From Cordylochernes scorpioides (taxonomy: Eukaryota; Arthropoda; Arachnida; Pseudoscorpiones; Chernetidae), in the NCBI GenBank assembly GCA_030710605.1, contig CP092863.1, positions 115,510,680 through 115,574,679 on the forward strand: 64,000 nt of DNA, in the 5' to 3' direction. The notes under the pieces are model-generated. The model did no database searches, was not told the origin of the DNA, and saw only the letters and a program-made list of their open reading frames with translations. Both the position numbers and the translations under genes were made by a program. Within the stretch, counting starts at the first letter, position 1; each line of letters opens with the position of its first letter. Below, in pieces: positions 36,341 to 62,979 of the stretch.

Positions 36341-36480
36341 GCTTTCTAATGATGAGCCAGGCCTTTCCATTATTTTATCATTGCAGTGAGGGTAGTAAAT
36401 AATAATTTTATTTCAAAATTAAACACTACACGTCAAAAATAGTTCAATTTTTTTATAACAGATGGCGTGCCTGTGCATCA
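36341..36480. repeat. Divergent fragment of the GATGAGCCAGGCC family
   Basis: Contains gatgagccaggcctttccat, tcattgcagtgagggtagta and an end like aacagatggcgtgc. It is related to the foldback family at 46446-47500. 36481-36884 contains a weak copy of the gatggcgcaagcc hairpin repeat and an otherwise unassigned AT-rich stretch. Confidence 0.5.
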
Positions 36481-36884
36481 AATTGATATTGTGTTGTTTT
36501 ATAGAGATATTTATAACGAAGGTTCCTGGAGGGAAGAATGCTGGATATGACAGCAGGTGATGAGATCCAACTGGTACTATCTATCAGCAACTCTGGAGTT
36601 ATCTCAACTTATCAAGAAAGATAAGCGTTGAAATATTTATAGACAATCTCCCCACTTTATCACTGAATTACATCAAATCATCTTCTTTTAATGTAATCAC
36701 TGGACACATTGTTCAAAACACGAGAAAACTTAACAATAACATGTTTTTTTAAAACACAATTTAAAACAGAAAATTTGTACTATTTTTAATCATTGTTTAG
36801 CGTTCTCATACAATTCTAGCCTTAACTACCCATTTCATCATTTTTCAGGATACCTGAATGATCTTTTTTTTTTTTTGTCGTTGA

Positions 36885-37440
36885 GGTACAGCTTGCATCA
36901 CGCTGACGAAGGCCAACAACCCGAAACGCGTACGTGGTTAGCTTTTCTTGATTAATCAAGGATGGGTAATTGGCCAATTCTGGATAATTTAAAAATCAAC
37001 GAATAGTTGATATTTATTCCGATAGATGGCGCAAGCCATCAGCAACTTTCAGTTGCACGATAAGGAGATGTTTTCTTTTTTTTTTTTCTTTATTTATTTA
37101 TTTATAATACGATGATGTATATTAGCGCGCCATCTGTTATAAGAAAGTGAAACTATTTTAGACGCGTTTGGTTCTTTTTTAAATAAAACAAATTTCTACT
37201 GTCTTTACTGCAATAGATGGGAGAACCATAGAAATGTGTTTAATTTTAAAAAGAACCAAACGTGTCTAAAATAAGAAAAAGGCATCTCCTTATCGTGCAA
37301 CTGAGAGTTGCTGATGGCTTACGCCATCTATCGGAATAAATATCAACTATTCTCGTTGATTTTTAATTATTCCAGAATTGGCCAAATACCCATTCTTGAT
37401 TAATTAAGAAAAGCTAACCACGGACGCGTGGTTTTTTCAC
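36885..37440. repeat. Foldback element with a hammerhead-like motif
   Basis: Large inverted arms at about 36933-37078 and 37280-37425 share cgtggttagcttttcttgat, ttggccaattctgg and the gatggcgcaagccatcagc repeat. The loop contains a second, nested inverted repeat at 37110-37272 (agcgcgccatctgttat and ctattttagacgcgtttggt). The hammerhead-like motif lies at the outer edge of the left arm. Confidence 0.75.
36897..36938 (+). ncRNA. Hammerhead-ribozyme-like motif, partly decayed
   Basis: Type I hammerhead layout: stem I atcacg (36897-36902) with cgtggt (36933-36938), core CTGACGA (36903-36909) and core GAA (36923-36925). A short stem III AC/GT follows with a GC loop (36926-36931), and A36932 is at the cleavage position. 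Stem II (36910-36922) is weak: an A-C mismatch then two GC pairs. Stem I pairs fully if one U-G wobble is allowed. Activity is doubtful because of stem II. The copy at 39164-39205 shares the downstream sequence. Confidence 0.5.
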
Positions 37441-38146
37441 ATTGTGTCTAAAATTTATATTTATGATATGTATGGGATTATTTTACTCAGCATGCCTTTG
37501 GCATATAAAAAGTCAAATGTTTCAATTTTAAATGAAATTAATTCTGTTAGATCCTTACAATCCCAAATATGTGATTAAAGCTTGATCTATGAAAAAGGCA
37601 CAATTTGGATTATAGATTAGAACTACAAGATATTAAGACCAAATCCAACGGATGTTCCTACCTGCTTCTGTAGATAAGAAGACTCAATATATTTATTGAT
37701 AGAATGTCCATTCTTTCACAGCTACAGAAGTAATCATTTTTAACCCATTGAAGAAATGTGCGAATTTGTATATAACAAAGACACCTATGTAAAATTCAAG
37801 AATTTTTGTAAATATATTCATTTTAGATTTTCTTTTTTGTTTGAGAAAACCAACGTTTCAGTTTTAATTTTGTTTTTAGTCTTGTTTATTGAATTGTATA
37901 TAAGCTGATAAAATGTATTTAGGTGCAAGTATTCCAAGCTGGGATATCGCGTCCTATATGTTAAATAAATAAAAATCCAAATAAATGAATAAATTTACAG
38001 ATATGCAAAAGAGGGTTTTCTCATTTCTAATTTTAAGAAAAAAAATTTTTTTTTCTTGGAAAACGATTTTTTTCTTATCTGCTATCTTGTTTACACACTT
38101 AATAACAGTACTATTTAAGAACTTGCTGTGATACAATTTATATTAA
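37441..38146. other. AT-rich spacer before the tRNA
   Basis: A fragment of the gcacaatttggattatagat / aagaccaaatcc family lies at 37588-37650. The rest is AT-rich single-copy-looking DNA without a gene; the frame at 37954-38136 is low-complexity. Confidence 0.5.
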
Positions 38147-38230
38147 GTCAGGATGGCCGAGCGGTCTAAGGCGCTGCGTTCAGGTCGCAGTCTACTCTTG
38201 TAGGCGTGGGTTCGAATCCCACTTCTGACA
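38147..38230 (+). tRNA. tRNA-Leu (CAG)
   Basis: 84 nt that fold as a class II tRNA. The acceptor stem GTCAGGA pairs with TTCTGAC (one G-T pair). The D arm contains GGCCGAGCGGTC, the anticodon stem CTGCG/CGCAG encloses TTCAGGT (anticodon CAG), a long variable arm follows (TCTAC...GTAGG), and the T arm is GTGGG TTCGAAT CCCAC. The A and B boxes are intact, and a run of T follows directly, as a Pol III terminator. The downstream sequence is a SINE-type 3' domain, so this could be the head of a young SINE and not a housekeeping gene. Confidence 0.8.
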
Positions 38231-38516
38231 TTTTTTTTTTTTTTAATCCCAATTTCCAACGACACGGAACAAACGTTTAGTTAGGAGCTCATCACCCAAT
38301 AGCTGCAAGGTCTGGGGAGGTACCACCTTTACTCGGCCAACTCGGCATTTGTAGTAGCAGAGTACAAGTAACCAAACAGGGTTCAGGCACATTTGTAAGT
38401 GCAAAGTCAAACTGCTTTTCACATGTGTAGACATGTCATGCACTTACACTAAAAGCAGTTGCCAACTTCTTCCCACCATGATTATCATGGCCTGTACCAC
38501 ATGTACTAGGGATAAT
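38231..38516 (+). mobile_element. SINE-type body directly after the tRNA-Leu
   Basis: After the T run comes about 120 bp not shared with the common SINE (from cccaatttccaacgacacgg). From agtacaagtaaccaaacagg onward it is the common SINE 3' domain, ending ccacatgtactagggataat and an A run at about 38523. Read with the tRNA it forms a complete tRNA-Leu-headed SINE with a shared tail. Confidence 0.65.
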
Positions 38517-38599
38517 AAAATTGAAAAAAAAAATAGCTAGGACAAGGTGATTCTAATGTAACACCTGTAAACTGAGCATAATAATAATAAAAAAATTCT

Positions 38600-38935
38600 C
38601 ATTCTTTTGATTATGGTAACAACACTGTTACCGAAAGGTCACAAACTAATTATTTATTTGGTCTTATTACCTTATAGTTCTAAAGCCTGAACTACATTCG
38701 GACATATAATGAGAGGAAATGGTATAGAAAAGACTATTATCAAAATTCAAAACTATTATAGACGCATAAGATTCTTTTTGAATATAAACATTTCTAATGT
38801 CCTTACTACAATGGAAAAATCAATGGGAGGGCCTGGCTCATCAGTGGTGAACCCTCCCAGGGGTTTCACCAGTTTAATCTACCATACCACTGTTATATTG
38901 CATTTTTGGAACTTCCTTTTATAGTGATACTGATG
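38600..38935. repeat. Palindrome arm and GATGAGCCAGGCC-family end
   Basis: 38605-38685 is a half palindrome (ggtaacaacactgttaccga, ggtcttattacct). 38730-38930 is a copy of the foldback family (gagggcctggctcatcagtg, cagtttaatctaccatacca). Confidence 0.6.
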
Positions 38936-39017
38936 CTAGACTCTTGGAATGGGTATTTTAGATGAACTATGGACATAAGCTTTGAGGACAGTAGAATTAC
39001 ATACATTTATAAATATA

Positions 39018-39490
39018 TTAAAAATGGCATATCCTGACCAGGAGCACATGTGCTTTACAGAAGGCAGAGCGACATCTGGTGGAACAGAAATCAACTAAAC
39101 ATTGATTTAGCCTGTTCCCTGATATTTGGCCAACCCAATTTCTTGATTTATCAAGAAAAGCCATCCACGAACGTGTTTCGCGCTTTTGGCGCTCGTCAGT
39201 GTGGAGTAGGCTGTACCACTGGACCAAAAAAGATTTTTTGGTGAAAAAACGAAAGAAAAAAAAAAGATAAAAAGATCAGGTGTTGAAATCAATATTAAAA
39301 ATGGCATATCCTGACCAGGAGCACATGTGCTTTACAGAAGGCAGAGCGCCATCTGGTGAAACAGAAATCAACTAAACATTGATTTAGCCTGTTCCCTGTA
39401 TTTGGCGTTCGTCGATGGCTTTTCTTGATTTATCAAGAAATTGGATTGGCCAAATATCAGGGAACAGGCTAAATCAATGTACTAGAGCGC
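39018..39490. repeat. Repeat with direct copies flanking a hammerhead motif
   Basis: A block starting attaaaaatggcatatcctg and running to gcctgttccctg is present at 39018-39130 and again at 39293-39404, a 275-bp offset. The hammerhead-like motif lies between them. After the second copy the sequence turns back on itself (39405-39480 is inverted relative to 39090-39165). Relatives are at 780-830, 47500-47600 and 48200-48470. Confidence 0.75.
39164..39205 (-). ncRNA. Hammerhead-ribozyme-like motif
   Basis: On the minus strand every conserved part of a type I hammerhead is present. Stem I 5' side is UCCACA (39205-39200) and the first core is CUGACGA (39199-39193). Stem II is GCGC-CAAAA-GCGC (39192-39180) and the second core is GAA (39179-39177). 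Stem III is AC-AC-GU (39176-39171), with U39170 at the cleavage position, and the stem I 3' side is CGUGGA (39169-39164). Stem I has five pairs with one A-C mismatch next to the core. Short stem III is typical of hammerheads in Penelope-like elements and retrozymes. Activity is an inference. Confidence 0.72.
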
Positions 39491-40288
39491 CATCTGTTAT
39501 CAAATTATAAAACTATTTTAGAGGCGTAATATTCTTTTTAAAATAAAATAATTTCTACTGTCCTTACTGCGATGGAAAAATTAAAGGGAGGGCCTGGCTC
39601 ATCAGTGGTGAACCCTCCCAGCGGTTTCGCCAGTTTAATCTACCATACCGCTGTTATATTGCATTTTTGTACTATTATTGTGCCTTCTACAAGCTTCGGT
39701 AAGCTTTTTAAGGCATAACTCATAGTTAGGTGTCTCCGAGCAACCCGCCGCGGAGGAGGGCCAAGGAGAGGGCTGGAGAGGCGACGGCGAGGCCGTGGGC
39801 GCCCCGGGGGAGAAGAGGGCGAGCACGCGGCTAAAGAGGGAACCAAGGAAGTACCAAGCACAGCGCCAGACTCCAAGTAAGTCTGGTAGATAACAAATTT
39901 ACCCTTTTTTTTTTTTTCAATAGGAGTAAACACAAAAGTACAAAGCAAAGGTAGGTAACAGGGGGATGGAAATACAAACAAGGGAGCAGGGAGCACGGGC
40001 AAGCATCAAACACGAAGACAAGGGCGAAAAAGCAAAGGAAAGGGGTATGTACAGAAAGATCAACGAAGCAAACAAGGGATATTGCATTTTAATATTGCAT
40101 TTTTGGTATCAATTATTCCGCCTTCTACAAGCTTTCAGGTAAGCTTTTTAAGGCACATAAAAAGACACAGGACAACATCTAGACTACACAAGTGCAAACA
40201 GCCCGCCGAATCTGGTACAGCGCGCCGCCTGCGAAGGAACCAAGGACGCACCAAGCACACCTAGAGCCCGAAGCCCCAAGGCGGCAAA
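39481..40288. other. Repeat fragments and a GC-rich spacer
   Basis: 39481-39670 is a GATGAGCCAGGCC-family copy. A block with gccttctacaagctt and taagctttttaaggca occurs at 39690-39715 and again near 40120-40155, bracketing a GC-rich stretch (39730-39880). Both GC-rich pieces contain gaaccaagga and accaagcac. No coding domain was recognised in the open frames. Confidence 0.45.
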
Positions 40289-40293
40289 AATAG

Positions 40294-40668
40294 TGTTGGA
40301 AAAGAAGACGTCCGAAGCAGCCAATGGGAGGCCGGCGGAAGCGGCTACGGGGATGCAGCGGCAAAAATGAGAAAACAATAACAGAAGAACTTGTAAACAA
40401 CTTTCGAACGCTAGAATTTACCCTGATCTCCGATTCTTTTAGTGTAAATATTTAAATATATAATTAATTAAATAATACTTTACTTATTTTCTTAAATTGT
40501 AATAAATATAATTTTCCCTCCTGTTTTCGTCGTATATTTTAAAAGTGTTATAAACAACGACGCCTTAACTTTGAACCTTCAACCCCGCCGACCAAGAATA
40601 GAGGTGAGTGACTACCTCTATAGAATTTAGATCGTCGTCACAACACAGAGTGGCGGTGAAATCGCAAT
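40294..40668 (+). repeat. 5' LTR of the BEL/Pao element
   Basis: 375 bp, from TGTTGGAAAAG to ATCGCAAT. The exact 3' edge is set by the AATAG duplication. Confidence 0.9.
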
Positions 40669-40783
40669 ATTTTTGGCATCCCAGCCGGGACTGTTGAAGG
40701 TAAATTCTAGAAAAAAAAGAAGCATTTTATGCTGGCCATTTTGGAACTCGCTTGCTAACCCTACTTGCTGCTTTGTTTACAAG

Positions 40784-41829
40784 ATGGCGGAAGAATTAAT
40801 TCTACGTTTAAAAAGAAGCGTGCTATTAACAGATCATATTTAACGAAAACATGCAATAAGATTGAAAGTGGACTTGACACGCTAATTAGAATTGATCTTG
40901 AAGAATTATTAGAACAATTGAATGAATCATTTAACGAACTTAAATTAGTGGATCACGAAATAGAAACGCTTCTTGAAACTGACGATTTAGAGAAGGAATT
41001 ACAGGGCGTAGAGGAATATCGAGAGAAATATATTACTTGGAGATTTAGGGCAAATAAAAAGATTCGCCAATCAGATTTTCATGGCGAAAATATACCGAAT
41101 TCGAACTCACGAATAGATGAAAATGAAATGAGACATTATGTACCTTCCTGCACGACTGTGAAACTTCCGAAATTGATGATATCGAAATTTTATGGAAACT
41201 TTAGTGAATGGCTGACGTTCTGGAATTCTTTTGATGCAGCTATACACCAGAACAACTCACTGAACCCGATCGATAAATTTAACTATCTGAAGTCACATCT
41301 CGGCGGAACTGCACTAAACACAGTCGAAGGTTTCGCTTTATCTGCGGACAATTATGAGAAAGCTATAAAATTGCTTAAAGACAGATTTGGGCGAGAAGAT
41401 ATTTTGATTAGCCGACATATGAACAATTTGTTGTCAATGAGACCACTCAAAACGTCAAGCGACGTAAGAACCTTCCGCGAACTTTTTGACAACCTTTCTG
41501 TTCATATAAGAAGTCTCGAGTCACTAAACGTGTCCATTGATGTTTACGGACAACTGTTGTGCCCGATAATAATAAAGCTTCTACCTGCAGACCTTAATTT
41601 GGAATTGAACAAAGAACTCCCGACAGGTTACGTAATTAATGACTTGATCACCTTTCTAGAAAGACAATTAACTGCACGGGAGAGGAGTTTTAGAAACGAA
41701 ATCGGTACCGGGAATGAATCAACTTCTAAACCTAATTTAGTAAACAAACATCCAAAGACAAGATTCTACAATGAAAAAGCCAATTGCGACAGCTTCAGAA
41801 CTTTTGAATTCAGTTCACAAATCGAATGA
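40784..41829 (+). pseudogene. BEL/Pao Gag
   Basis: The natural start is probably the ATG at 40784 (MAEELILRLKR). The main frame, however, is offset by one base and begins without an ATG, so a frame break lies between about 40800 and 40840. The main frame has a helical N-terminus and the DUF1759 region typical of BEL/Pao Gag (PKLMISKFYGNFSEWLTFWN, then FNYLKSHLGGTALNTVEGF). It ends in a different frame from the Cys/His knuckles that follow, with a 59-bp overlap with Pol. A programmed shift is possible, but simple decay is likelier. Confidence 0.85.
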
Positions 41830-44800
41830 ATGTGTATTTTGTGGTAAAGACAACCATGGAAGCCCTAAGTGTGACTTTGCAGCTAATATGAGTTTAAACG
41901 AAAAGAGATCACTCATTAGGAAAAAAGGCGTTTGTTATAAATGTCTTCGTCCTTCTCATTTAAGTAAATTTTGCAGAAATGTAGTCCGGTGTTCGATCTG
42001 CAACATGTTTTCCCACCTGGATGTCATGTGCACAAAACGGATTTTAGATCGAGGTGGATCTTCTAAGTCTCCAACGGTGCAAGATGAAACTCTCGCCAAC
42101 TTATCAACCTCCCCAGACGTCTTGTTACCTACTTTGAGAGTGACCCTCAAAGGGAACAGAACGGAGAAGACGGCACGGGCTATAATAGACACCGGATCCC
42201 AAAGATCATATATTTTACATAGCACAGCAATGGAAATGGAATACGAACAATCTAGGAGAGAGTTCTTCCGGCATTCCTTGTTTGGAGGATCGAGTACCGA
42301 CGTAGTTGAACATGAGGTGTATACCATTCATTTATCGGACATCAATAATTCCTATCGCTGCGAGTTTGAAGCACTAGGTCAACCCCTTATCTGTGGAAGC
42401 ATACCTCCGGTGTGTCCAAGATCATTTTTAGAAGGGAGTGAAGAACTCGACGTGTCTGATTTGATGAGAGACCGTATAGAAGTCCTTATAGGGGCGGACA
42501 TCGCCGGCAGATTGCTAACTGATGATCAGAGAAGAATCTCATCTGGACTGGTGGCAATCCGTACCAAACTAGGATGGACTGTGATGGGAAAGATTCCTCC
42601 AACGGAGGTGAGAGATGACACCAGCTCCCTTTGCTTGACCACACTTCTATCTTTGGATCTAGAAAACTTGTGGAAATTAGATGCAATTGGAGTCTCTGAC
42701 GCGGAGGTTGAGAAGAAGACTCAGTCATTACAAGCTGAAATGGAGGAACATTTCGCCCACACCACGACGCGAGATATTGAGGGGCGCTATGAGGTAGCTC
42801 TACCCTGGGTGCAAGACAAGGAAAGGATTCCTTCGAATAAAGACCTAGCCGAAAACCAACTAAGTTCTGTAAGAAGAAAACTTGAAGAAGTTGGAGACAT
42901 GAATGAGTATGGACAAATCTTTGAAGAATGGATGAAACAGGGGATAATCGAGTATGCCAGAGAGGATAAACTAGATGGTGTACACTACCTGCTACATCGA
43001 CCAGTGTATAAAAGGAACAGTCACACTTCTAGAATACGGCCAGTATTCAATGCGTCGGCCCGGAAGAGAGGTAAACTTTCCCTGAATGACTGTCTGGATA
43101 AGGGACCCAATTTGATAGAAATTATACCAAGACTTTTAAATAAATTCCGGAAATATGAAGTTGGTGTCTCTTCCGATATTGAGAAAGCATTTTTACAAAT
43201 TGGAATAAAAGAAGAAGACCGAGATTATTTACGATTCCTGTGGCACACAGAAGACGGAAGATTAATCACGTATCGACATAAAAGGGTTGTTTTTGGAATT
43301 ACCACTAGTCCGTATCTTTTAAAGGCTACCTTATCTCTCCACTTAGATAAGGCTCCTGAACATTTAAAAACCACAGCTGAACAGTTGAAATCATCCTTTT
43401 ATGTTGACAATTGTTTATCCAGTTTTCAGAATGTTGAAGAAACAGAGAAATTCGGGAAACAATCTACTGAGCTGCTCTCTACAGCTTGTTTCAATCTCCG
43501 AGATTGGGTGAGTAACGTTACAGACTTTTCTCTTATGAACCCACTGAATAAAGAAGTGAACATTTTAGGAATAACATGGAATACTGATAGAGACACACTG
43601 ACAATTGGTTTGGAAGATTTTGAATTAATTGGACCAACCACCAAGAGAAAAGTACTTTCAATAGCGAGCAAGATATTTGATCCATTAGGAGTTGCTTGTC
43701 CTGTGACTTTAATTCCCAAGCTGATATTACAGGAAACTTGGATACAAAAGTTGACATGGGACGAAGTCCTACCTGGATGTTTAGTACAAAGATTTTGGAA
43801 GTGGTTTAGCAAACTGAAACACTTGCCTAACATAGAAATTCCTAGATGGCTTTGTTTTAAGGACTCCTATGTAGAGAAAACCACTCTCCACATCTTTTGC
43901 GACGCCAGTCAGTTTGCCTATGCAACCTGTATTTTCCTCCGCATTGAAAAGGAAGATAGAGTAGACATCCAATTGATACAGGCTCGAACACGAGTAGCTC
44001 CACTGAAGAAACTCACCATCCCAAGATTGGAGCTTTTGGCTTGTCTGATTGGAGCTCGTTTGACAGCTAACGTCATACAAGATCTGGAATTTGAGGAAAT
44101 TCCAAGATTTTATTGGACCGATTCGACCAATGCTCTCTGTTGGATCCAAAGGGAAGACAACTGGGCAGCCTTTGTGATGAACCGTGTTAAGGAAATTCAT
44201 AATCTTAGCCCCCCCGAATCTTGGCGCCACATACCAGGCCGATTAAACCCGGCAGACCTCCCATCTCGGGGATGTTCAGCAGAATCACTTAAGGAGACAA
44301 GATGGTGGGAGGGACCTGCATGGTTAAAGGTATCCCAAGAAGAGTGGCCCAAATCAACCATTATCCCTGATTTGGAGATTGTTTATTCTGAAAGGCGCAA
44401 GACCATCCTGAACACCTTGTGTACGACAAGAGAAAATGAAAATTTATTTGGACGTTATTCCCATTTTTTGAGAATAGTACGAATCACCGCCTGGATATAC
44501 AGATTCTTCAACAACGCCAAGATTGATAGAAGAAAGATAATTTCAGAAGATCTCAGTACAGAGGAAATCACTAAGTCAGAAATAATACTGATAAGACTTA
44601 TCCAGAGAGAATCGTTTTCAGGGCATGAAGATAAGAAACTACAAGGCTTTAAGTTGCTAGTAGACTCTTCAGGGATTTTGAGAATAAAAACTAAAATTTG
44701 CAGAAGAGAAGATTTCGCTAATTTTAGAATGCCCATTTTATTGCCCTCAGATCACTTTTTGGTTTCTTTGCTCATCAGGTGGAACCATGAAACCCACGGG

Positions 44801-44974
44801 CACGCCGGTCTACAAACTCTCCTCGGTATTCTGAGAGAAAACTATTGGATACTAAGATCCAGGAAAACCGTCAAGAAGATCATCAATCAATGCATTCGCT
44901 GTAAACGATTCACCGTGACACCAGCTACCGTCGAGTCAACATCATTACCAGAAGACAAGAAACGAGACGCCTGA
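41771..44974 (+). pseudogene. BEL/Pao Pol polyprotein, truncated in integrase
   Basis: 1067 codons without a stop. Cys/His knuckles come first (CVFCGKDNHGSPKC, then CYKCLRPSHLSKFC), then the aspartic protease (AIIDTGSQRSY, Asp about 140). The reverse transcriptase has YVDN at about 544-547 in place of YVDD; Asn at this position is, from memory, common in BEL/Pao lineages. RNase H follows (LHIFCDASQFAYATC, about 706; LTIPRLELLACLIGARL), then the integrase zinc domain (HGHAGLQTLLGILRENYW...CIRCKRF). The frame stops just after LPEDK, where the integrase core should begin. A C-terminal DUF5641-like piece follows in another frame (GDMVLIGQESLKRLHWPLAR, 44996-45060), so the core was deleted. Confidence 0.92.
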
Positions 44975-45102
44975 AGACTACCATACCACTCAAGGTGGGA
45001 GACATGGTACTCATTGGACAAGAGAGTTTAAAGAGACTACACTGGCCGTTAGCCAGAATAATCCAACTCTATCCAGGAAAAGACGGACTTGTGAGGGTTG
45101 CG
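44975..45102 (+). pseudogene. DUF5641-like C-terminus of BEL/Pao Pol, first part
   Basis: Read one frame away from Pol: IPLKVGDMVLIGQESLKRLH, WPLARIIQLYPGKDGLVRVA. Broken by the hAT insertion at 45103 and resumed at 45771 (VKTSSGDKIRPI), then a stop; a later segment (45965-46010) keeps SYGRPIKRPNRLDLL. Confidence 0.8.
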
Positions 45103-45762
45103 CAGTGTTGGGCAAATATTAATTAAAATGATTTATTAAAGATTAACAATTGATTAATTGTTAATTGTAATTTTCACAATTAACAATTAATCAATTGTTA
45201 ATTGTATTTTTACAATTAACAATTAATTAATTGTTAATTGTATTCATACAATTAACAATTAATTAATTGTTAATTGCACTTTTCTAATTAACAATTAATT
45301 AATTGTTAATTGCACTTCAATTTAATTGAAAAATAATTTTTTAATGCCCAACACTGCATTTCAGTACCACTCTTTTCTCGAACATGCTGTCCAACAATTT
45401 GTGACTCTTTGGCAGATTTGTCATTGTCGCAAAAGAAAAAAGGCGTTCAACTGCAGCTGACGATGGTAAAGGTGTGTTGTATTTAATAAAAACACTTTTT
45501 ATCTCAGGCAGTGTTGGGCAAATATTAATTAAAATGATTTATTAAAGATTAACAATTGATTAATTGTTAATTGTAATTTTCACAATTAACAATTAATCAA
45601 TTGTTAATTGTATTTTTACAATTAACAATTAATTAATTATTAATTGTATTCATACAATTAACAATTAATTAATTGTTAATTGCACTTTTCTAATTAACAA
45701 TTAATTAATTGTTAATTGCACTTCAATTTAATTGAAAAATAATTTTTTAATGCCCAACACTG
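45103..45762. mobile_element. Composite hAT element: two MITEs around a transposase tail
   Basis: 660 bp bounded by CAGTGTTGGGCA and TGCCCAACACTG, with a perfect 8-bp duplication GGGTTGCG (45095-45102, 45763-45770), the hAT signature. It consists of two 254-bp direct copies (45103-45356, 45509-45762), each with both terminal repeats and about five hairpins built on caattaacaattaattaatt. They flank 152 bp of coding remnant. The outer duplication shows that the whole composite inserted as one unit. Confidence 0.92.
45357..45508 (-). pseudogene. hAT transposase C-terminal dimerisation fragment
   Basis: On the minus strand one open frame of about 50 codons covers the whole inter-MITE segment. 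It contains YNTPLPSSAAVERLFS and SHKLLDSMFEKRVVL, the conserved end of the hAT dimerisation domain. In the family this region helps transposase dimers form. No catalytic part is present. Confidence 0.88.
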
Positions 45763-46064
45763 GGGTTGCGAAAGTGAAAACTTCATCAGGTGATAAAATA
45801 CGACCTATTCAAAACTCTACAATTTAGAGATAACGCCTGAGATAAGATGTCGAGACCCTCTAACGGAGCGATCTCCCACACAAGAAGTTCGATTGACAAC
45901 TGAAGAGGACCCTTTGACTTCACAACAAGAGCAACATCACATTAATACCCCGAATGTTGTGTCAAGTTACGGACGGCCCATCAAGAGACCCAACCGATTG
46001 GATCTACTGAACTTTTCCTTCCCATGTTTGAGTCGTCGAGACGCCAACTCAAAGGTGGGAGAAA

Positions 46065-46440
46065 TGTTGGAAAAGAAGACGTCCGAAGCAGCCAATGGGA
46101 GGCCGGCGGAAGCGGCTACGGGGATGCAGCGGCAAAAATGAGAAAAACAATAACAGAAGAACTTGTAAACAACTTTCGAACGCTAGAATTTACCCTGATC
46201 TCCGATTCTTTTAGTGTAAATATTTAAATATATAATTAATTAAATAATACTTTACTTATTTTCTTAAATTGTAATAAATATAATTTTCCCTCCTGTTTTC
46301 GTCGTATATTTAAAAAGTGTTATAAACAGCGACACCTAAATTTTGAACCTTCAACCCCGCCGACCAAGAATAGAGGTGAGTGACTACCTCTATAGAACTT
46401 AGATCGTCGTCACAACACAGAGTGGCGGTGAAATCGCAAT
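46065..46440 (+). repeat. 3' LTR of the BEL/Pao element
   Basis: 376 bp; differs from the 5' LTR at a handful of positions, mainly in the 46310-46350 stretch. Confidence 0.9.
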
Positions 46441-46445
46441 AATAG

Positions 46446-47500
46446 TGACCACGAGGATCGAAACTTCATCTAGGAGTGATATTGCATTTTTGGAACTTCC
46501 TTTTATAGGTGACTGTTGTAAGACTCTTGGAATAGGTATTTTAGAAGAACTATGGACATAAGCTTTTAGGACAGCAGAATTAAATATAATTATAAATATA
46601 TAATATGCTTCGAGCAATCGCTCTTCCGCAAATATCAAATTGTGTCTTTTATTAGAACAATAATGTTACGATGTACTAGAGCGCCATCTGTTATCAAATT
46701 ATAAAACTATTTTAGAGGCGTAATATTCTTTTTAAAATAAAATAATTTCTACTGTCCTTACTGCGATGGAAAAATTAAAGCTCTAGTACATCGTAACATT
46801 ATTGTTCTAATAAAAGACACAATTTGATATTTGCGGAAGAGCGATTGCTCGAAGCATATTATATATTTATAATTATATTTAATTCTGCTGTCCTAAAAGC
46901 TTATGTCCATAGTTCTTCTAAAATACCCATTCCAAGAGTCTTACAACAGTCACCTATAAAGGAAGTTCCAAAAATGCAATATAACAGCGGTATGGTAGAT
47001 TAAACTGGCGAAACCGCTGGGAGGGTTCACCACTGATGAGCCAGGCCCTCCCTTTAATTTTTCCATCGCAGTAAGGACAGTAGAAATTATTTTATTTTAA
47101 AAAGAATATTACGCCTCTAAAATAGTTTTATAATTTGATAACAGATGGCGCTCTAGTACATCGTAACATTATTGTTCTAATAAAAGACACAATTTGATAT
47201 TTGCGGAAGAGCGATTGCTCGAAGCATATTATATATTTATAATTATATTTAATTCTGCTGTCCTAAAAGCTTATGTCCATAGTTCTTCTAAAATACCCAT
47301 TCCAAGAGTCTTACAACAGTCACCTATAAAAGGAAGTTCCAAAAATGCAATATAACAGCGGTATGGTAGATTAAACTGGCGAAACCGCTGGGAGGGTTCA
47401 CCACTGATGAGCCAGGCCCTCCCTTTAATTTTTCCATCGCAGTAAGGACAGTATAAATTATTTTATTTTAAAAAGAATATTACGCCTCTAAAATAGGCTA
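46446..47500. repeat. Foldback family array, GATGAGCCAGGCC
   Basis: One reverse unit (about 46480-46785) is followed by two forward units (about 46786-47156 and 47157-47500, 375 bp each). Each has agcgattgctcgaagcatat, cttatgtccatagttcttct, ggcgaaaccgctgggagggt and ctgatgagccaggccctccc, ending aacagatggcgctctagtac. Single copies are at 38730-38930, 39481-39670, 57919-58345, 61740-61895 and 62310-62570. Non-coding. Confidence 0.8.
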
Positions 47501-47719
47501 AATCAATGTTTAGTTGATTTCTGTTTCACCAGATGGCGCTCTGCCTTCTGTAAAGCACATGTGCTCCTGGTCAGGATATGCCATTTTTAATATTGATTTC
47601 AACACCTGATCTTTTTATCTTTTTTTTTTTTCGTTTTCTCATTTATAAATATATAATATGCTTCGAGCAATCGCTTTTCCGCAAATAACCAATTGTATCT
47701 TTTATTTTAGCAATTATAT
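47501..47719. repeat. Fragment of the 39-kb hammerhead-associated repeat
   Basis: 47500-47635 is the inverse of 39018-39100 plus the ttcaacacctgatctttt block; it lacks the ribozyme motif. The rest resembles the foldback family edge (atgcttcgagcaatcgct). Confidence 0.6.
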
Positions 47720-47866
47720 TATGATGCATTAGCGCGCCATCTGTTATCATACATAATTTCCATTGTAGTAAGGGCAGTATAAATTGTTTATTTTTAAAAA
47801 GAATCATACGCGTCTATAATAGTTTCGAATTTTGATAACAGATGGCGCGCTAATGCATCATAAAGA
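47720..47866. mobile_element. Small MITE with AGCGCGCCATCTGTTAT ends
   Basis: About 147 bp with long terminal inverted repeats (atgatgcattagcgcgccat / atggcgcgctaatgcatcat) and an inner segment gtaagggcagtataaattgt. It is an internally deleted relative of the foldback family. 47867-48064 shows nothing recognised. Confidence 0.7.
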
Positions 47867-48189
47867 AAATACAATGTTGGGAAAATTGAAGAGAAGACGA
47901 CCTCCAATGAGCTGGTTAGAAGGGATCAAGAAAACTAGCAAAGGTCACTAGATGAGCTGAGTGATGGTCACTAACAGATCAAATTGGATAATTTTTGTCC
48001 ATATAGTCATGTATTGACAGATATGGAATGAGACATACATCCTTTTTATTATTAAATTGATAAGTGGGGGTCGATGGAAGGATGGTCTAAAATATTGGTT
48101 TTTGACCGCTACAACCCAGATTCGAATCCCGCATTGGGCACTTTTTTCTAATTAAAAAAATATATGTGAAAAAATAATAGAAAAAAAAA

Positions 48190-48475
48190 ATAAAAGGTCA
48201 GGTGTTGGTATTAAAAATAAAGAAGGCATATCCTGATCAGGAGCACATATGCTTTTTAGATGACAGAGCGCCATCTAGTGGAACAGAAATCAACTAAACA
48301 TTGATTTAGCTTGTTCCCTGATATTTGGCCAACCCATTTTCTCATTCAATTTTAGGGAACAGGCTGAATCAATGTTTAGTTGATTTCTGTTCCAATAGAT
48401 GGCGCTCTGCTATCTAAAAAGCTCATGTGCTCCTGATCAGAATATACTTTTTTTATTTAGAAAAAAAAAAATATA
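48190..48475. repeat. Foldback copy of the GGCATATCCTGACCAGG family
   Basis: Inverted arms at 48215-48335 and 48350-48455 share aggagcacatatgc / gctcatgtgctcctgatcag and gatggcgctctgc. A relative of 39018-39490 lacking the ribozyme motif. Confidence 0.65.
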
Positions 48476-48485
48476 TATACGTATA

Positions 48486-50505
48486 TGTCATAATATATGC
48501 TCTTCCAGGAATAATAAAGTAAATCTACAGTCGACCAGAGAGAGAGAGAGACTTAGAGAGAGAACGCAGCTAAGTTACGGCCATATTGAACCACTGGCCA
48601 CATGCCCGAGGGGGCTTTTCTTGGAACCCTCAGACCTATTTTTGGACAGTCGGGGGGTGGTGGCGACACGAACGGTCGTTCAGCGGTGACATCCCCTCGC
48701 GCTACCTCTCTCTCGCTTGTTGCCTGAAATTCCTCTACCTATTTGTGGCGTGATTATTTCCCTTTCCCCACCACAATATTATCACTATATTGCCACATTG
48801 AAAGTCGACAGGATCATCACAGAAGAGTCGACAGGATCATATCACATAAAGAGTCGACAGGATCATATCAAATAGATTTGAAGACAGGGTCCATGTGGCG
48901 AACGTGTGGCGCGAGAAGAAGAAGCGAACTGTGCCGCTCGATGCAGATTGTTCAAGTGAGAACAAAAGGGAGTTGATAAATATCTAGCAGTTAGTCAATC
49001 TGCATCCTGTGACGAACACACCATTGGCTAGATGGTGTGGGTCGGTGGATATGCTAGAGATGAACTACGAAATATATTATCATAAATGAAGGGCGAAGAT
49101 TAGGATTTTGAAATGACAATATAGAAGTTCGATAATTGATTAATCAATAATTCTCTATAAAAGGTCCTGAGCTGGTAGAAGGTTAACAAAGTTGTAAGAA
49201 TGAGAGGGGCATTCAGGGGAGAATAGATAAGAGTCACCAAGGGTTGGTTGTAAGCAAGGCTCACGTGGTGGTTGGAATTCTTCGACGCCTGAATTACAGG
49301 GTGAATTTTGAGTCGTTTAGGGAAAGGAATTATTTTTCGTGAGCCGTGCTTACAAGTAGGAGAGGTCATATACAAATAGGTATACAAAAGTTTAGGTGCT
49401 GGAGGCATATTTTTATAGATAAATCGATTATGAAAAATCTATTGTTAATAGTAAAAATCGTAAAGCATTAATAGGTAGAATTCCCTTTTTTTTAAGTTAC
49501 GTTAAAATGGAGATTATTTAATTAAAATGACGATTGTTAAATTCTACTGGTAAGGTAACTAATTAAATGAGTTACAAATAACTAGATAAATAATATGGAG
49601 AATAAAATCATTGTTAATAGGCGTGGAGAGAATAAATGGAGCTAATTATGTAAATATTGGGACAATTTACAAGGAATGACTTATTTAAAGAATGAATGGT
49701 AGGAGTTAAAACAATTACACTCACGAGTTATGTTGGTTTAGGGCGCAGGTAAGTTCATTGAGCTTCGGGAGAGTTCTGTCTGTGACACTGTGCGTACCAG
49801 TGTTGTACATCACAGTAGCGGCAGGGATATGGCGGAGTCTTGTCCATGATGGAGGAAGGTGTCTTGCCCTGGCACGGTGGTCGTTCTTGGGCAGATCTAG
49901 TGCTGGAAGAAGTGCGTGGCAGCTCCATCTCCGTCGTAGGTGAATACTTCTTCGGGATCACGGTTCAAAGGTTGGCGAAGAAGGGGTTGAGGGCTCGAAG
50001 AGGAGTGGTTACAGTTGAGTTGGGTTTGGCCGATCATCGTGGCTTGGCTTCTTGTTTCTTCATACTCCGGTATATGAGGGATTTGCTTCCCGGCCAGGTC
50101 TTATCCTGTCGACTCTTTATGTGATATGATCCTGTCGACTCTTTATGTGATATGATCCTGTCAACTCTTCTGTGATGATCCTGTCGACTTTCAATGTGGC
50201 AATATAGTGATAATAATGTGGTGGGGAAAGGGAAATAATCACGCCACAAATAGGTAGAGGAATTTCAGGCAACAGGCGAGAGAGAGGTAGCGCGAGGGGA
50301 TGTCACCGCTGAACGACCGTTCGTGTCGCCACCACCCCCCCGACTGTCTAAAAATAGGTCTGAGGGTTCCAAGAAAAGCCCCCTCCGGCATGTGGCCAGT
50401 GGTTCAATATGGCCGTAACTTAGCTGCGTTCTCTCTCTACGTCTCTCTCTCTCTGGTCGACTGTAGATTTACTTTATTATTCCTGGAAGAGCATATATTA
50501 TGACA
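48486..50505. mobile_element. 2-kb element with ~390-bp inverted repeats
   Basis: Both ends begin TGTCATAATATATGC and run inward for 378 bp (to 48863) and 403 bp (from 50103). They carry an aataataaagtaaatctaca block, GA/CT runs and, at the inner edge, two to three copies of gtcgacaggatcatat. The arms look like LTRs (TG start, AATAAA-like signal) but lie in opposite orientation. The interior holds a Gag-type zinc knuckle on the minus strand. It is either an LTR element rearranged by inversion or a foldback transposon. Confidence 0.7.
49740..49961 (-). pseudogene. Gag-like zinc-knuckle fragment
   Basis: The minus-strand frame ends with PPYPCRYCDVQHWYAQCHRQ, a Cys-x2-Cys-x3-His-x4-Cys knuckle like those at the end of some arthropod retrotransposon Gag proteins. 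A proline/serine-rich stretch precedes it. No protease or polymerase follows within the element. 48864-49739 shows no other domain. Confidence 0.5.
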
Positions 50506-57586: not shown

Positions 57587-60500
57587 CTGCCACCAGCCAA
57601 GTGTGTGAACAAACTGTTGCAATATTGTTGTTTGCATCATGGCTAATGCATATAATTTGTTTCAATTTGTAATATTATTTTTCATACACAGTAGAACCTC
57701 CCTGTTAAGGACAACACCTAATTGCAGAGCCAAAGTGTCCTTTTACCAAAGTTGGCAAATAGTAAAAATAATTTTGCAAATGAAAACTGTCCTTTATAGA
57801 GAGGTGTTGTCTAGCCTGAGTGTCCTCTCATGGCGGTTCTACTGTATTTTAAAATCAAATTGTAGAAATTTTATATTTATTTCTTTTAATAAACAGAATA
57901 TTATAAACACATTATGTACTATGATGCATTAGCGCACCATCTGTTATCAAAATTCAAAACTATTTTAAAGGCGTAAGATTCTTTTTGATATTAAACAATT
58001 TCTACTGCCCTTACTGCAATGGAAAAATTAATGAGAGGGCCTGGCTCATCAGTGGTGAACCCTCTCAGCGGTTTCGCCAGTTTAATCTACCATACCGTTG
58101 TTATAAAGCTTATGTCCATAGTTCTTCTAAAATACCCATTCAAAGAGTCTACCAACAGTATCACTATAAAAGGAAGTTCCAAAAATGCAATATAACAGCG
58201 GTATGGTAGATTAAACTGGCGAAAACCGCTGAGAGGGTTCACCACTGATGAGCCAGGCCCTCTCATTAATTTTTCCATTGCAGTAAGGGCAGTAGAAATT
58301 GTTTAATATCAAAAAGAATCTTATGCCTTTAAAATAGTTTTGAATTTAGATTATGTACTATAAAAAATCACCATTTGTATTTTGGTACACAACTCTTGAT
58401 GTGGGAGATGAATAAATTATTCTAGAAGCTACTTGAAACAAGAGTAATCTCATTATTCAACCTTGTAGGAAGGTTGTAACATATTCTGGAAAGATACAAG
58501 ACAACAAAAACCTTTAAGACACTATTGTCTTACCAGGGGATTCCCCATAGAAAGATACAAGACATGTCTGCCAGACCTGGTGTAGCAATATATAGGAAAT
58601 GAAAGGGCCAATATTTCAAATAAAGCTTTCTACTTGTCTGTAACTTATGATTAAATAATATATTGGGAGGGGGGTTTAGCTCATCAGAGGAGAAACCATC
58701 ACACAGCTTTTTAAATGTCTAGTACTGTATTTCCTTAATAGTGCTTCCTCAGCGTGGCACTGAGAGTTCAAAAAGACCTTGTCTGGAGTAGAACTCTCTC
58801 AAGATGGAGGAGCTTGCCTTGCTGAAGAAATTTGTACAACTGTTTATTATATAATAATTTTTTCTGTAACAATTGATTAGAAGTCAATAGTCTAATACTG
58901 TATTTCACTTATATATGTGAGACTGGCAGGTAGGATCTGAGCACAGAAGCTTTAAAGACAATTGAATTACAGATAAAAATTGAGCCAAATAACACCACCT
59001 ATGGTACAACAATCAGTAACTCACCTGAGGACATCAGAGGTGAGGCTGGAATCCAGGGGGTGGTTGTTGCGGACGGGGGCCGAGGCATGCAGGAGCTCGT
59101 CAGAGTTCTGTTGCACCTGGGGGGAGTGCACCAGCAGGGAGCACCGCAGGAAGACGGGGCAGGAGTGCTGGAGGTGGGGGCAGCTGGCCCAGAACCACCG
59201 GGGGAGGGGACCCGTGGGAGCGGTGGAGACATAGTACCCCAGAGCCAGGGGCTGCTGGTGGAGCGTGAGCCGCTCGTCAGTGGCCCTCGGCCCCGCCACG
59301 TACCGTACCGCCGCCCATCCCGCCCCCGGGACTCCCCGGCTGGCTGCGGTGAGGGCTGCCAGTGGGGCTCTGTCCGAGTCCATCAGTCCAGCCTAGCAAG
59401 TCATTGATGTCCTGCCCCACTGTGGTGATGTCCTCTTCATTCAGGTCCTGGAAGAAATCCTCGTCCACCAGCGACGTGGACAGGGCGTCGATGTGTTCCT
59501 GCTGGCTGCTGGGCTTGCTCGGCTACATCACACTCACAGCTATCAGTAACACACTCCAAGTAGAGGGTACAGCCCCTCTCAGGATCCAATCACACAATGG
59601 CCACTTGTTGTTTCAATGGACCCAACCTCTCCTTATTCAAGCAGAAACTCAACCCCACCAGTGAATGCAACTAACCAAACAGGGCTCTGGTACAATTGTA
59701 AGTGAAAAAAGAGTCTAACTGCTTTCAAATGTGTAGGAAAAGCAATCGCCAACTACCCACCATGATTATCATGGACTCTGCCACATTTCTTATCCAATGC
59801 ATTTAGATGGGGTCTTGTGTTTGTAGTAGTCTTCATGGTAGAAAGTCACAACAAGAGCAGGACTTACCCTGGCCGTGGCAGAGGTGGGGAAGACCAGGAT
59901 GTGGGTGCAGGAAGCGTCGTGTGGGGTGGAGAGGTCGCAGTTGTTGCAGGAGGAGGAGAAGCGGTCGTCCGGTGTGAACTGGTCGGCCATGATGCGGAGG
60001 TTGGTGTCTGGCTCCAGGGCGACCAGACAGGCAGAGAGGATGGCCGGGGTGTCCTGGGCCCCCAGCACAGAGCACTGCTGGCACATCTCCCTCAGCTGGT
60101 TGCTGTAGAAGAGCAGGGACTTGCGGCCCAGCAGGCTGCCCCACTCCCTCAGCTCTCCCTGACCTATGCGGCCCATCCGTGCCACCACCACCCGCCACGG
60201 GCAGGTGGACTGGCTCATCACACCCATCAGGAACATGAACAGCTTCTGCAGCCCAATCTTGCGGGAGGAGGCCCTCCTCCTCCGTGCCCGGAAGGGAATA
60301 TCGATGTTGATGGTAATGGCTTCGAGGAGGTCGCCGCGGTCATTGGTGCAGGTGGCCAGCAACCAGCGCTGGTCCTCTGTGAGGCAGTACGAGCACACCA
60401 GCACGTTGGAGCGCTCCTTGCGGTCCCCAAACATCTCCCCCAGCTCAGTCTGCTTGTTCTTCTGCGGAGCCAGGAAGTAGGGCAGGCTACCCAGTCTGTG

Positions 60501-62979
60501 GGGCGAGGTGATGGAGCCTTTGTTAGTCCTCAAGAACAGGTCCTGGGAGGCTGCCGGCCCGAAGCCTGTGAGGGACTTGATGGGGGGCTGCGGGGAGCTG
60601 GTAGGGCGGCACTGCGAGTAGACAGAGAAGGCCAGGGTCTTGAGCTGGTCCTTGCGCCGGCTGCGCGGGCCGTCACCCAGAGACAGGATGGAGTCCAAGG
60701 ACACCATCTGAAGCTGTAGGCTCTGCTGTAGGTGAGGAGGCAGGCCGCGCACCAGCTGGGTGTAGCAGCGCAGCAGGCCCAGCACAGCCAGGCGGTACAG
60801 GTCAGGGTCCATGCTGGCCAGGGTGAAGGGCTCCACCAAGTACACCACAATGGTGGGCTGGGCTTGCTCTCCGTCCTCTCCCTCCCCAGAGGCCGCACTG
60901 GCACCAGCAGGGGCATGGCCGCCCTCCGCTGCTCCCGGGGGCTCCGCGTGGCCTCCTAACTCTGTCACCCACCACAACATTCTCACAACCTTCCCTAAAC
61001 CAACACAATGTGGTCATCAACAGCTGGGATTGAAACCTGCATTTGTTCCTCTACTCAATAGAATACTCCCTTGTAACAATATTGAGGTGTAATCATCAGG
61101 TTTCAAGGAAAATTTAACCTCTAGCTTCGGGCATGAAATCCCTTCTACAGGAGAAAATACAATTGGACAAAAGTTTATTAAGTTTATTTCAAACAAAAAA
61201 ATTGCCTCAATGGACCCTAATTCTTGCCAAACCCCACCAGTGAGAGTAAGTAATTTGTCTTTAGATCTCTAGCTTTCGGATACAATAGCCTTTCTACAGG
61301 AGAAAATACAATGTATTAATCTTCAAATGGACAAAAGTTAAAGTTTATCTCAAACAAAAAAACTGCCTCAATGGACCCTCAATTCTTGGCTAACCCCACC
61401 AGTGAGAGTAAGTAATTTGTCCATAGAGTCAAACAAGCTACACTCCGTGAGATCCTCCTACCTGAGGAGTCAATGATGACAGGCTTGAGTTCCTCCGGGG
61501 GTTTGTTGTCAGTGGGGGGAGGAGGGTTCATGGCGGTGGAGGAGGCACTTTCCAGGAGTGTCTTGCTGTCCAGCTGTTGCATAGCTAGGTGTGGGGCTGC
61601 AACAACAACAACAACGTCACAAACTCTTGCTAACACAAAAATATGCTATATATTGTTGCACCGTCCTGAAAGGGATCTTCATGTCAATATTCAATCGGTC
61701 CATTACCGGGCAGACCATAACGAGTAATCATAAAACAAATATCCAAATTCAAAACTATTTTAAAGGCGTAAGATTCTTTTTGATATTAAACAATTTCTAC
61801 TGCCCTTACTGCAATTGAAAAATTAATGAGAGGGCCTGGCTCATCAGTGGTGAACCCTCTCAGCGGTTTCGCCAGTTGAATCTACCATAGTGCATCATAA
61901 AACAAATATATTTTAACAAGGAAAATTATTTACAAATGTTAGCCAGATATGGCCGAGAGAGATATATAAGAGAGCATCACGATGACAGAGTAGGACACCA
62001 CAGAGTGACAATAAATATAGCAGCCATCACTAGAATCTGTATTGGGTCATGTTGGATTTTAGCATATCACACAGGGCCAAACATGTAGCTAACAGACTTC
62101 AATGTCATTCCTTGTGTATAGTATTAAGCCAAAATTTCATCAAGGAAGAGAGGTGCATCTTAAATACACAATTTTTATTATCTCTAAACTCATGGATAAA
62201 ACTAAAGACAGTAGTTAATGTTGCCATCTATAAACAAAAGTACACAGTACATTTTACAAATTAAAACATTATGACGTTGAATGCTTCTTTCACAAATAAA
62301 CCCAAGTTTATATTATGATGCACTAGCGCGCCATCTATTATGAAAATTAGAAACTATTATAGACGCGTAAGATTATTTTTTTAAATTAAACAATTTCTAC
62401 TGCCCTTAGTGCAATGAAAAAACTGGCAAAACCGCTGGGAGGGTTCACCACTGATGAGCCAGGCCCTCCCTTTAATTTTTTTTTCATTGCAGTAAGGGTA
62501 GTAGAAATTGTTTAATAAAAAAATAAAAAAAAGAATCTTATGTGCCTAAAATAGTTTCAAATTTTCTTAAAAATCCAACTTTGTCTGAAATTTTACAGAA
62601 ATGTCACTTGGTCACATTAGGTCTGCCCCAGGATAAGAAACAGTGAGGAAGGCTGTACTCACCCAGCTGTAGACGGCAGGCCTGGGCATAGAGGCGGAGG
62701 TGAGACGCCACAGGTCCGTCCCCGATGATATTGAACCAGTCGTCCAAGGGGGCGGAGGAGTCCCGCCTCAGCCTTGATGCCGGACACAGAGAGGATGCCG
62801 TCCCTCAGCAGCGAGCCGCCAGGTAGCGGACAATGGCGGCCCAGCCGGTGGGCCTCGTAGGTCCCACTAAGTTCCCGGAAGTAGGCCCCTACCCTGGGAG
62901 TGAGGAACTGGTTGTCTGGGGCCACGACCACGTAGGCTACATCCCGGCCTGAGGAGGATGGCTCCAGACTCAAGTAATC
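57454..62979 (-). CDS. MED13: Mediator complex subunit 13, C-terminal exons (partial)
   Basis: MED13 links the CDK8 kinase module to core Mediator and acts in the nucleus in RNA polymerase II regulation. Five exons are seen: 62979-62663, 61596-61462, 60955-59868, 59522-59025 and 57586-57454, all with AG/GT borders and compatible phases. They cover the MID/PIWI-like C-terminal part: [116 protein letters not shown] and [14 protein letters not shown]. The stop is at 57456-57454. The exons are GC-rich. A one-base frame break appears near 62750-62770 and another near 59295-59310; these may be assembly errors or disabling mutations. Upstream exons lie beyond 64000. Confidence 0.93.
57689..57844. 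mobile_element. pogo/Tigger-like MITE
   Basis: 156 bp with CAGTAGAACCTCC and GCGGTTCTACTG ends and TA on the right. The interior matches 20067-20244 with a short deletion. Confidence 0.8.
57919..58345. mobile_element. Foldback element, GATGAGCCAGGCC family
   Basis: Two inverted arms of about 175 bp (57919-58105 and 58180-58345) share agagggcctggctcatcagt and its inverse. The outer left end is tgcattagcgcaccatctgt. Non-coding. Confidence 0.8.
59025..59522 (-). CDS. MED13: MED13 exon with [13 protein letters not shown] end
   Basis: Acceptor gtgatgtag at 59530-59523 and donor GTGAGT at 59024. Starts [20 protein letters not shown], with the acidic [12 protein letters not shown], then a Gly/Pro/Ser linker. 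A frame change near 59295-59310 leads into [26 protein letters not shown] and [10 protein letters not shown]. Confidence 0.9.
59640..59790 (+). repeat. SINE 3' fragment in a MED13 intron
   Basis: Begins aactcaaccccaccagtgaa and ends accatgattatcatggactc; diverged from the young copies. Confidence 0.7.
59868..60955 (-). CDS. MED13: MED13 largest exon in the window
   Basis: About 363 codons without interruption. Acceptor gacagagttag, donor GGTAAGTCC. It holds the core of the conserved C-terminal domain, including [59 protein letters not shown] and the block ending FPTSATAR. Long frames on the other strand (59817-60719) are shadows of its GC-rich codons. Confidence 0.95.
61118..61425. repeat. 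Intronic tandem duplication with SINE scraps
   Basis: Two copies of about 150 bp share ttctacaggagaaaatacaa, tgcctcaatggaccct and aaccccaccagtgagagtaa. The last block is an old SINE body. Confidence 0.7.
61462..61596 (-). CDS. MED13: MED13 exon [14 protein letters not shown]
   Basis: Acceptor gttgttgcag at 61597-61606 and donor GTAGGAGG. Encodes [18 protein letters not shown] and ends VIIDSSG, a proline-rich linker region. Confidence 0.9.
61740..61895. repeat. Foldback-family fragment in a MED13 intron
   Basis: Matches one arm of 57919-58345 (ttaatgagagggcctggctc), one copy only. The intron stretch 61896-62309 shows no other feature. Confidence 0.7.
62310..62570. mobile_element. Foldback element in a MED13 intron
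   Basis: Inverted arms around actattatagacgcgtaaga and tgcagtaagggtagtagaaa. Contains gctgggagggttcaccactg and the left end tgcactagcgcgccatctat. Confidence 0.72.
62663..62979 (-). CDS. MED13: MED13 exon GRDVAYVVV, with a frame break
   Basis: Acceptor gtgtgttcag at 62989-62980 and donor GTGAGTAC at 62662. The first part reads [20 protein letters not shown] and [16 protein letters not shown]. The second part, one frame over, reads [20 protein letters not shown] then AQACRLQL. The frames join near 62750-62770 in a GC-rich run. Confidence 0.88.

Follow-up and report, generated by a model that had tools for sequence, protein, structure and literature searches.

A short repeat in the genome of the pseudoscorpion Cordylochernes scorpioides carries a hammerhead-ribozyme motif, and we propose that it is a metazoan retrozyme of the kind without long terminal repeats (non-LTR), copied in trans by the reverse transcriptase (RT) and GIY-YIG nuclease of a resident Penelope-like element (PLE), which would leave inverted composites whose outer ends differ, one being short and the other long. 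We put the probability of this reading at about 0.8. The motif lies on the minus strand at 39159-39212 of a 64,000-nt stretch of contig CP092863.1, called the window below. Its presence is confirmed, and the interpretation of a first-pass annotation of the window, a non-autonomous retroelement bearing a ribozyme, is supported.

Read directly, the motif has the layout of a type I hammerhead with an outer stem I helix. Both core segments that the first-pass annotation had named on the minus strand are in place (CTGACGA at 39199-39193, GAA at 39179-39177), together with its perfect stem II (GCGC 39192-39189 and GCGC 39183-39180 around a CAAAA loop) and its stem III of two pairs (AC/GT, 39176-39175 pairing with 39172-39171). 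The one stem I mismatch reported beside the core is A39200.C39169, within an inner stem I formed by CCACA (39204-39200) and CGTGG (39169-39165), and our placement of the predicted cleavage agrees, between 39170 and 39169 with T39170 as H17. The range first given, 39164-39205, is correct but omits the outer stem I helix AGCC/GGCU (AGCC 39212-39209 with GGCT 39162-39159), which lies across an internal loop made of TACT (39208-39205) and the AT before GGCT. When the window was scanned with permissive, stem-aware settings, the only hit besides this site was a spurious place where two matches overlap, beginning at 40967.

The genome searched comprises 2.62 Gb in 24 contigs. A strict hammerhead pattern found 18,477 + 18,556 places, and a looser one, which fixes the core and stem III in its short form, constrains stem I in part and leaves stem II free, found 38,882 (19,383 + 19,499); the reversed control gave 0 for each. 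A 146-bp query from the locus returned 40 scored candidates spread over many contigs, and the core is present in copies elsewhere in the genome. An alignment of 68 copies (59 distinct; 67 of 82 collected copies plus the window copy) has standard pairs in 96.0% of its 883 pair cells; shifting the partner by 1-3 columns lowers the figure to 22.8-41.1%. Changes on both sides of a pair occupy 46 cells against 16.7 in shuffles, where the counts are of cells rather than of independent events and the split between families A and B supplies much of the signal. These double changes are located in stem II, in outer stem I and, once, in stem III; inner stem I has none in the 68 copies, part of it having been fixed by the pattern for loci L031-L060. 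The first-pass annotation had named two outcomes that would refute its proposal, a lack of compensatory changes and other copies without the core, and neither was seen. Compensatory changes can be read at single pairs: a stem II pair is C-G in 34 distinct copies and G-C in 23, and an outer stem I pair is C-G in 39 and U-A in 19. With the core CUGANGA/GAAA/UH and three stems in the order C-G-S, families A and B carry a type I hammerhead motif whose stems are kept by covariation, and self-cleavage is predicted.

The family A unit is 351 bp long with stem II GCGC/GCGC, and its sister family B, also found in the window, has a 338-bp unit with stem II GGGC/GCCC. The units stand in tandem with a cleavage site at every junction and have 40% GC. 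They contain no open reading frame above 50 aa (the longest is 50 aa) and no RT or GIY-YIG frame, and so are not autonomous PLEs; a non-coding tandem unit within 150-450 bp, with a hammerhead at the junctions, is the build of a metazoan non-LTR retrozyme. The view of a non-autonomous family holds, since the element is non-coding and ribozyme-bearing, and four short Penelope RT/GIY-YIG queries gave no convincing match in the window (best tblastn E 0.12). The window's own 277-bp unit is a deletion form of the 351-bp unit. The "275-bp direct copies" said to flank the motif do exist as direct repeats, but they are 107 nt long and lie 277 bp apart.

Inverted insertions and their two ends

Units A and B were mapped on non-redundant loci, namely the best matches of the window locus (L002-L030), the 30 pattern places that come first on contig 1 (L031-L060), six loci picked for opposite-strand pattern places close together (L091-L096) and the window. 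Overlapping loci (L001, L023-L025, L039, L047) and blocks under 60 bp were dropped, and L061-L090, fetched as PLE loci, were excluded from the block counts. The 5' ends of the blocks are spread over the whole unit; the 3' ends form two clusters, one at about 146-159 and one at about 191-210, and in family A they peak most sharply at 155 (21 of 85) and 208 (20 of 85). Of the opposite-strand neighbours up to 60 bp apart, 41 are arranged 5'-to-5' and 5 are arranged 3'-to-3'; leaving out the six picked loci, the counts are 35 divergent and 4 convergent. Among the contig-1 loci, an inverted partner is present at 12 of 28 pattern sites.

After the removal of repeats, including the window pairs at 39015 and 48172, which are identical events to L002, 39 inverted events remain. 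Both ends could be classified in 32 of them as short (145-162) or long (188-213), classes that were defined after the ends had been seen. A short end, near position 155, is joined to a long one, near 205, in 29 of the 32, and no event is long-long. When these ends are paired at random, the mean is 16.1 short-long events, and 0 of 200,000 shuffles reached 29. The pattern recurs in each subset (17/20 in family A, 12/12 in family B, 9/9 in the contig-1 sample). One short-short event, L096, has an identical flank on both sides and resembles an inverted duplication; it is counted among the 32 and is excluded from the flank-repeat and arm-partner comparisons. Head-to-head inverted copies with the tail on one arm are the architecture of PLE-type integration.

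Direct repeats in the flanks have a median of 12 bp in 31 events against 5 bp in 930 mismatched flank pairs, both medians being raised by AT-rich targets. Clear target duplications are AGTTATAGATACTAT (L043) and TTACTTATGTGT (L050), and the duplications are longer than 4 bp, as in retrozymes. The flanks outside 122 classified ends are 85% AT, compared with 65% in the loci. In the young events L005, L092 and L091 the arms are 99-100% alike, and in 9 of 29 events an arm has its strictly best match in its partner.

The window locus is not the simple tandem arrangement of the first-pass annotation. It is a 5'-to-5' inverted composite that was afterwards split by an 8-kb insert. The first arm (39015-39406, minus strand) is made of A40-205, A279-351 and A1-155, and its outer 3' end at 39015 is the short site. 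The second arm starts 5'-to-5' with the first at 39410-39480 (plus strand, A1-71) and resumes past the insert at 47492-47642 (plus strand), from A54 to the long site. With its outer ends at 39015 (short) and 47642 (long), the locus thus shows the one-short-one-long pattern too. The insert (39481-47491; 8,011 bp, 15-bp target duplication AGGCTAAATCAATGT) has family C repeats at either end and a nested BEL/Pao element. L002, which lies 94 kb away, is an inverted segmental duplicate of window 37895-48703 (98.2-98.5% alike) that lacks the insert and has an uninterrupted second arm, and thus serves as a natural empty site.

The same scar is found in a PLE family resident in this genome. The search for GIY-YIG elements gave 150 scored matches; reading through these, we counted 11 neighbouring pairs up to 5 kb apart that diverge and none that converge. 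The family compared most closely, PLE-1, combines a GIY-YIG domain above the cut-off with a piece of RT that includes YIDD but scores below the cut-off (RVT_1, E 0.0012), and it has a small hammerhead-like motif; the PLE RT fragment had 0 matches in PDB. Loci L061-L090 hold several GIY-YIG families, one group of which has a hammerhead-like motif, CTGACGAGGACAAAAG...GTCGAAACGTCGAGGTA, after the nuclease region. We surveyed the ends of PLE-1 with a 156-nt query running from the hammerhead-like motif to the tail. Beside the 40 scored places are seven inverted partners, one of which covers only 47-83 and is unclassifiable; the six classifiable pairs are all 5'-to-5', with arms ending at 113-120 and 150-156. 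By eye, four of the six are flanked by direct repeats of 8-15 bp, one by a repeat of 5 bp and one by none.

A tail hairpin of 7 bp surrounds the short site in both retrozyme families (GGTCAGG/CCTGATC in A, GATAAGG/CCTTATC in B), with the short site within its loop and the long site about 30 nt past it. In the window it is formed by GGTCAGG (47569-47575) and CCTGATC (47605-47611) on the plus strand, again with the short site in the loop. An alignment of 50 of 52 distinct copies pairs in 96.3% of 349 cells, compared with 16.6-53.6% in slid versions, and has 14 double-change cells against a shuffle mean of 4.1. The PLE-1 counterpart, CTGGCCG/CGGCCAG, has an equal position relative to the two ends and forms in two of three folded copies. 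The start sites lie in or adjoin a stem-loop, as in PLE-type elements. We assign the retrozymes to PLE machinery because the hairpin is common to A, B and PLE-1, the likeness being a structural analogy and not one of sequence.

The sequence itself shows a covarying ribozyme layout, 3' ends that recur at set places, insertions of inverted geometry and the one-short-one-long rule, along with the target duplications, the hairpin and identical scars in the resident PLE. Based on the insertion scars, we infer that the PLE protein was the agent of reverse transcription in trans. The RNA would cleave itself and, in some events, serve as a circular template. The type I hammerhead of a non-coding RNA of ~350 nt would cut multimeric transcripts to units, and the PLE RT/GIY-YIG protein of the same genome would reverse-transcribe this RNA. 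After the protein had cut the two strands of an AT-rich target, the 3' ends so released would each prime complementary DNA (cDNA) at one of two internal RNA sites, the loop of the conserved 7-bp hairpin or a site about 30 nt past it. Both cDNAs would extend toward the 5' side of the RNA, at times across several units, and join mid-way, so that the outcome would be a 5'-to-5' inverted composite with a short and a long outer end, flanked by a target duplication. If the two cut strands prime at different internal sites, a complete insertion is expected to be a short/long inverted pair.

The permuted layout of family C

Family C, which occupies both ends of the 8-kb insert, probably carries a hammerhead of the permuted type-SGC, for which cleavage is predicted. 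Its 370-bp unit is present in about two tandem copies at 46780-47491 (plus strand) and reads CAGCGGU-A-UGGU-agauuaaa-CUGGC-GAA-ACCGCUG-ggaggguuc-ACCA-CUGAUGA-GCCAG, with GGGAGGG/CCCUCCC flanking the last block. The three hammerhead stems and the core nucleotides are complete and follow the order cleavage site, GAA, CUGANGA (S-G-C). In the motif at 46985-47052 (plus strand) the blocks are IIIb 46985-46991, H17 46992, Ib 46993-46996, IIb 47005-47009, GAA 47010-47012, IIIa 47013-47019, Ia 47029-47032, CUGAUGA 47033-47039 and IIa 47040-47044, and a bridging helix pairs 47020-47025 with 47046-47051. A second, sequence-identical copy adjoins the hammerhead locus at 39567-39665 (minus strand). The first copy lies within 46973-47071 (plus), further copies are at 47344-47442 (plus) and 38806-38904 (minus), and decayed ones at 58014, 58184, 61809 and 62391.

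The family C pattern occurs at 36,381 places genome-wide (control 0). We aligned 18 of 35 places, which were picked by eye for coverage and are mostly old copies. H17 is A or C in 16 of the 18. Stem II is 94.4% paired with 6 double changes, one of its pairs being C-G in 11 copies, U-A in 5, A-U in 1 and U-G in 1, and the bridging helix has double changes at three pairs; stem III is only 72.2% paired. Taken whole, the structure is paired in 82.9% of cells, barely more than the 81.4% of shuffles, of which 18 of 500 did as well; its double changes number 14, compared with 7.7 in shuffles (5 of 500). In a further set of 30 distinct strings from other places, 13 have C-G and 9 have U-A as the outer stem II pair, and the five stem II pairs taken together were equalled by 469 of 20,000 shuffles. 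Genome-wide, a stem I pair shows the double change 26 times against 12.0 expected (470 x 930 / 36,381), an excess that could stem from mixed copy ages; the A.C single change, at 470, is half as frequent as G.U, at 930. Rfam gave no hammerhead matches at the family C motif.

Family C pairs in the studied loci are divergent in 11 cases and convergent in 0, with one event counted twice (L002 and the window). By reading, with no statistic attached, six events have ends at about 131-144 and about 163-184, the window insert being one of them. We are inclined to think, with some reserve, that one Penelope-type machinery mobilises A and B (type I) as well as C (type-SGC), and that each of the two cut strands primes at one site.

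Objections and rival explanations

Several observations weigh against the reading of A and B as retrozymes copied by a PLE, or against its extension to C. In the covariance-model check suggested by the first-pass annotation, the window copy reached 22.6 bits against Rfam Hammerhead_HH9 (RF02275; E 0.004), short of the gathering score of 52, and none of eight further loci (seven with retrozyme copies, one Penelope-only) reached the gathering score, which is a library threshold and not the definition of a hammerhead. A genome search with RF00163 gave no matches and is uninformative, as control genomes equally gave none. The window copy has a 73-nt deletion (about A206-278) and is probably weak or dead; its A.C mismatch beside the core recurs in 8 of 59 distinct rows. 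Three of the 32 classified events are short-short, 7 of the 39 inverted events have an unclassified end, and in 20 of 29 the partner arm is equalled or surpassed by another match. Array units are identical in L022 (3/3), and neighbouring units in L020 are 86% alike, which speaks against a single circular template there; such a template therefore suits some arrays only. Short-short pairs of PLE-1 could not show because the query contained the tail, and several other family C pairs (L002, L011, L082, L092) misfit or are clipped at locus ends. Finally, the passages of PMC11167929 that concern the anole PLE describe a start site alike on both strands, a caution for the rule of one site per strand, and insertion in vitro without need for hammerhead cleavage.

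The rival that survives best, though improbable, is that A and B are deletion derivatives of PLE terminal repeats, copied along with the PLE. The scars are alike, the hairpin has a similar position and both elements have a hammerhead. However, A/B matches in the 30 PLE loci resemble separate nested or neighbouring insertions, the units make tandem arrays of their own, and their similarity to PLE-1, the only PLE family compared closely, is limited to short low-scoring stretches. A different PLE may have ends like those of A.

Slightly less probable again is copying of the retrozymes by a long interspersed nuclear element (LINE), whose twin-priming products would account for the inversions. Twin priming inverts the 5' part of an insertion and leaves a single outer 3' end. 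In the present insertions, each of the two outer ends is a 3' end that falls at a fixed internal site, and the resident PLE has the identical scar, so that we reject this origin even though an RT frame of LINE-like type (RVT_1) occurs in the window and LINEs are listed in reviews among the possible partners. The least credible rival, spread as DNA in the form of a satellite or foldback element with an incidental hammerhead, would suit the tandem arrays, the long inverted arms and the 98%-alike duplicate of the locus 94 kb away, but is rejected because double changes preserve RNA pairs in ribozyme and hairpin, and an RNA template suits insertions that are dispersed, bear target duplications and vary at the 5' end while the 3' end is fixed.

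Other window features and known systems

A family B retrozyme copy lies at 36773-37077 (plus strand), with a degraded hammerhead at 36877-36954 whose stem II is partly mismatched. The BEL/Pao element within the 8-kb insert (40294-46441) has Peptidase_A17, RVT_1 and integrase zinc-binding domains and is bounded by 377-bp direct repeats, 98.1% alike. The 9-mer AGATGGCGC occurs at 15 places in the window against 0.13 expected (among them 8441, 37024, 37127, 39346, 39487, 47531, 48397 and 62328), and once per unit in A, B and C; its sequence resembles that of CTCF/YY1 sites. Pieces of host genes at 15592-16752 and 59790-61013 belong to a RabGAP-TBC protein (single long open frame) and a C-terminal stretch of Mediator subunit 13. 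The insect odorant-receptor family had 0 matches among 26 scored candidates, in a search with no positive control. At gathering level, Rfam matched only one 5S rRNA and one tRNA in the window. Matches to mir-4662 and MIR5048, far below gathering and caused by the long inverted repeat, were rejected.

The hammerhead motif itself belongs to a known kind. The window copy resembles Hammerhead_HH9 in its layout and in the internal loop of stem I, at a score below gathering. According to the sections of PMC7229834 consulted, metazoan non-LTR retrozymes are tandem non-coding units of 150-450 bp with a type I hammerhead and GC below 50%, show target duplications longer than 4 bp and co-exist with PLEs. 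Families A and B are alike in unit size, type I hammerhead, non-coding nature, low GC, duplications and co-existing PLEs. They differ from the retrozymes of those sections, which occur as tandem copies and whose copying enzyme is left open, in being inverted short/long composites.

In these composites they follow the PLEs, for which the excerpts of PMC3846280 and PMC11167929 describe a tail on one inverted repeat, cutting and extension of both strands, and two internal start sites. Shared with those PLEs are the head-to-head inverted ends, the tail on one arm, target duplications (8-10 bp in the published PLEs), AT-rich targets and internal start sites in a stem-loop. The two sites lie about 53 nt apart in family A and about 36 nt apart in PLE-1, the published spacing in PLEs being 30-40. 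Unlike PLEs, the retrozymes are without RT or nuclease. Mobilisation by Penelope elements was earlier a proposal only: a 2020 review and a 2024 review still name PLEs, or LINEs and PLEs, as candidate partners. Retrozyme insertions that bear a PLE scar, and the permuted hammerhead layout of family C, go beyond the known kind, and we found no earlier account of either in the open-access papers searched. The scar makes the question of which enzyme copies animal retrozymes testable, here and in other genomes, the one-short-one-long rule limits models of PLE integration, and a circular RNA template would require internal priming.

For type-SGC hammerheads, the order and the bridging helix were described in 2023 and cleavage was shown (Eckert et al. 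2023, PMC10085705), and that paper reports none in the genomes of known organisms. Family C matches that description in its S-G-C order, in CUGANGA and GAAA, in an H17 other than G in 16 of 18 copies, in the helix bridging stems I and II and in the directly abutting stem III; its Ib-IIb linker is 8 nt long, compared with typically 3 in type-SGC. If this assignment is true, family C would be the first reported genomic home of the type-SGC hammerhead, and would provide that form with a host among animals and a function within a mobile element.
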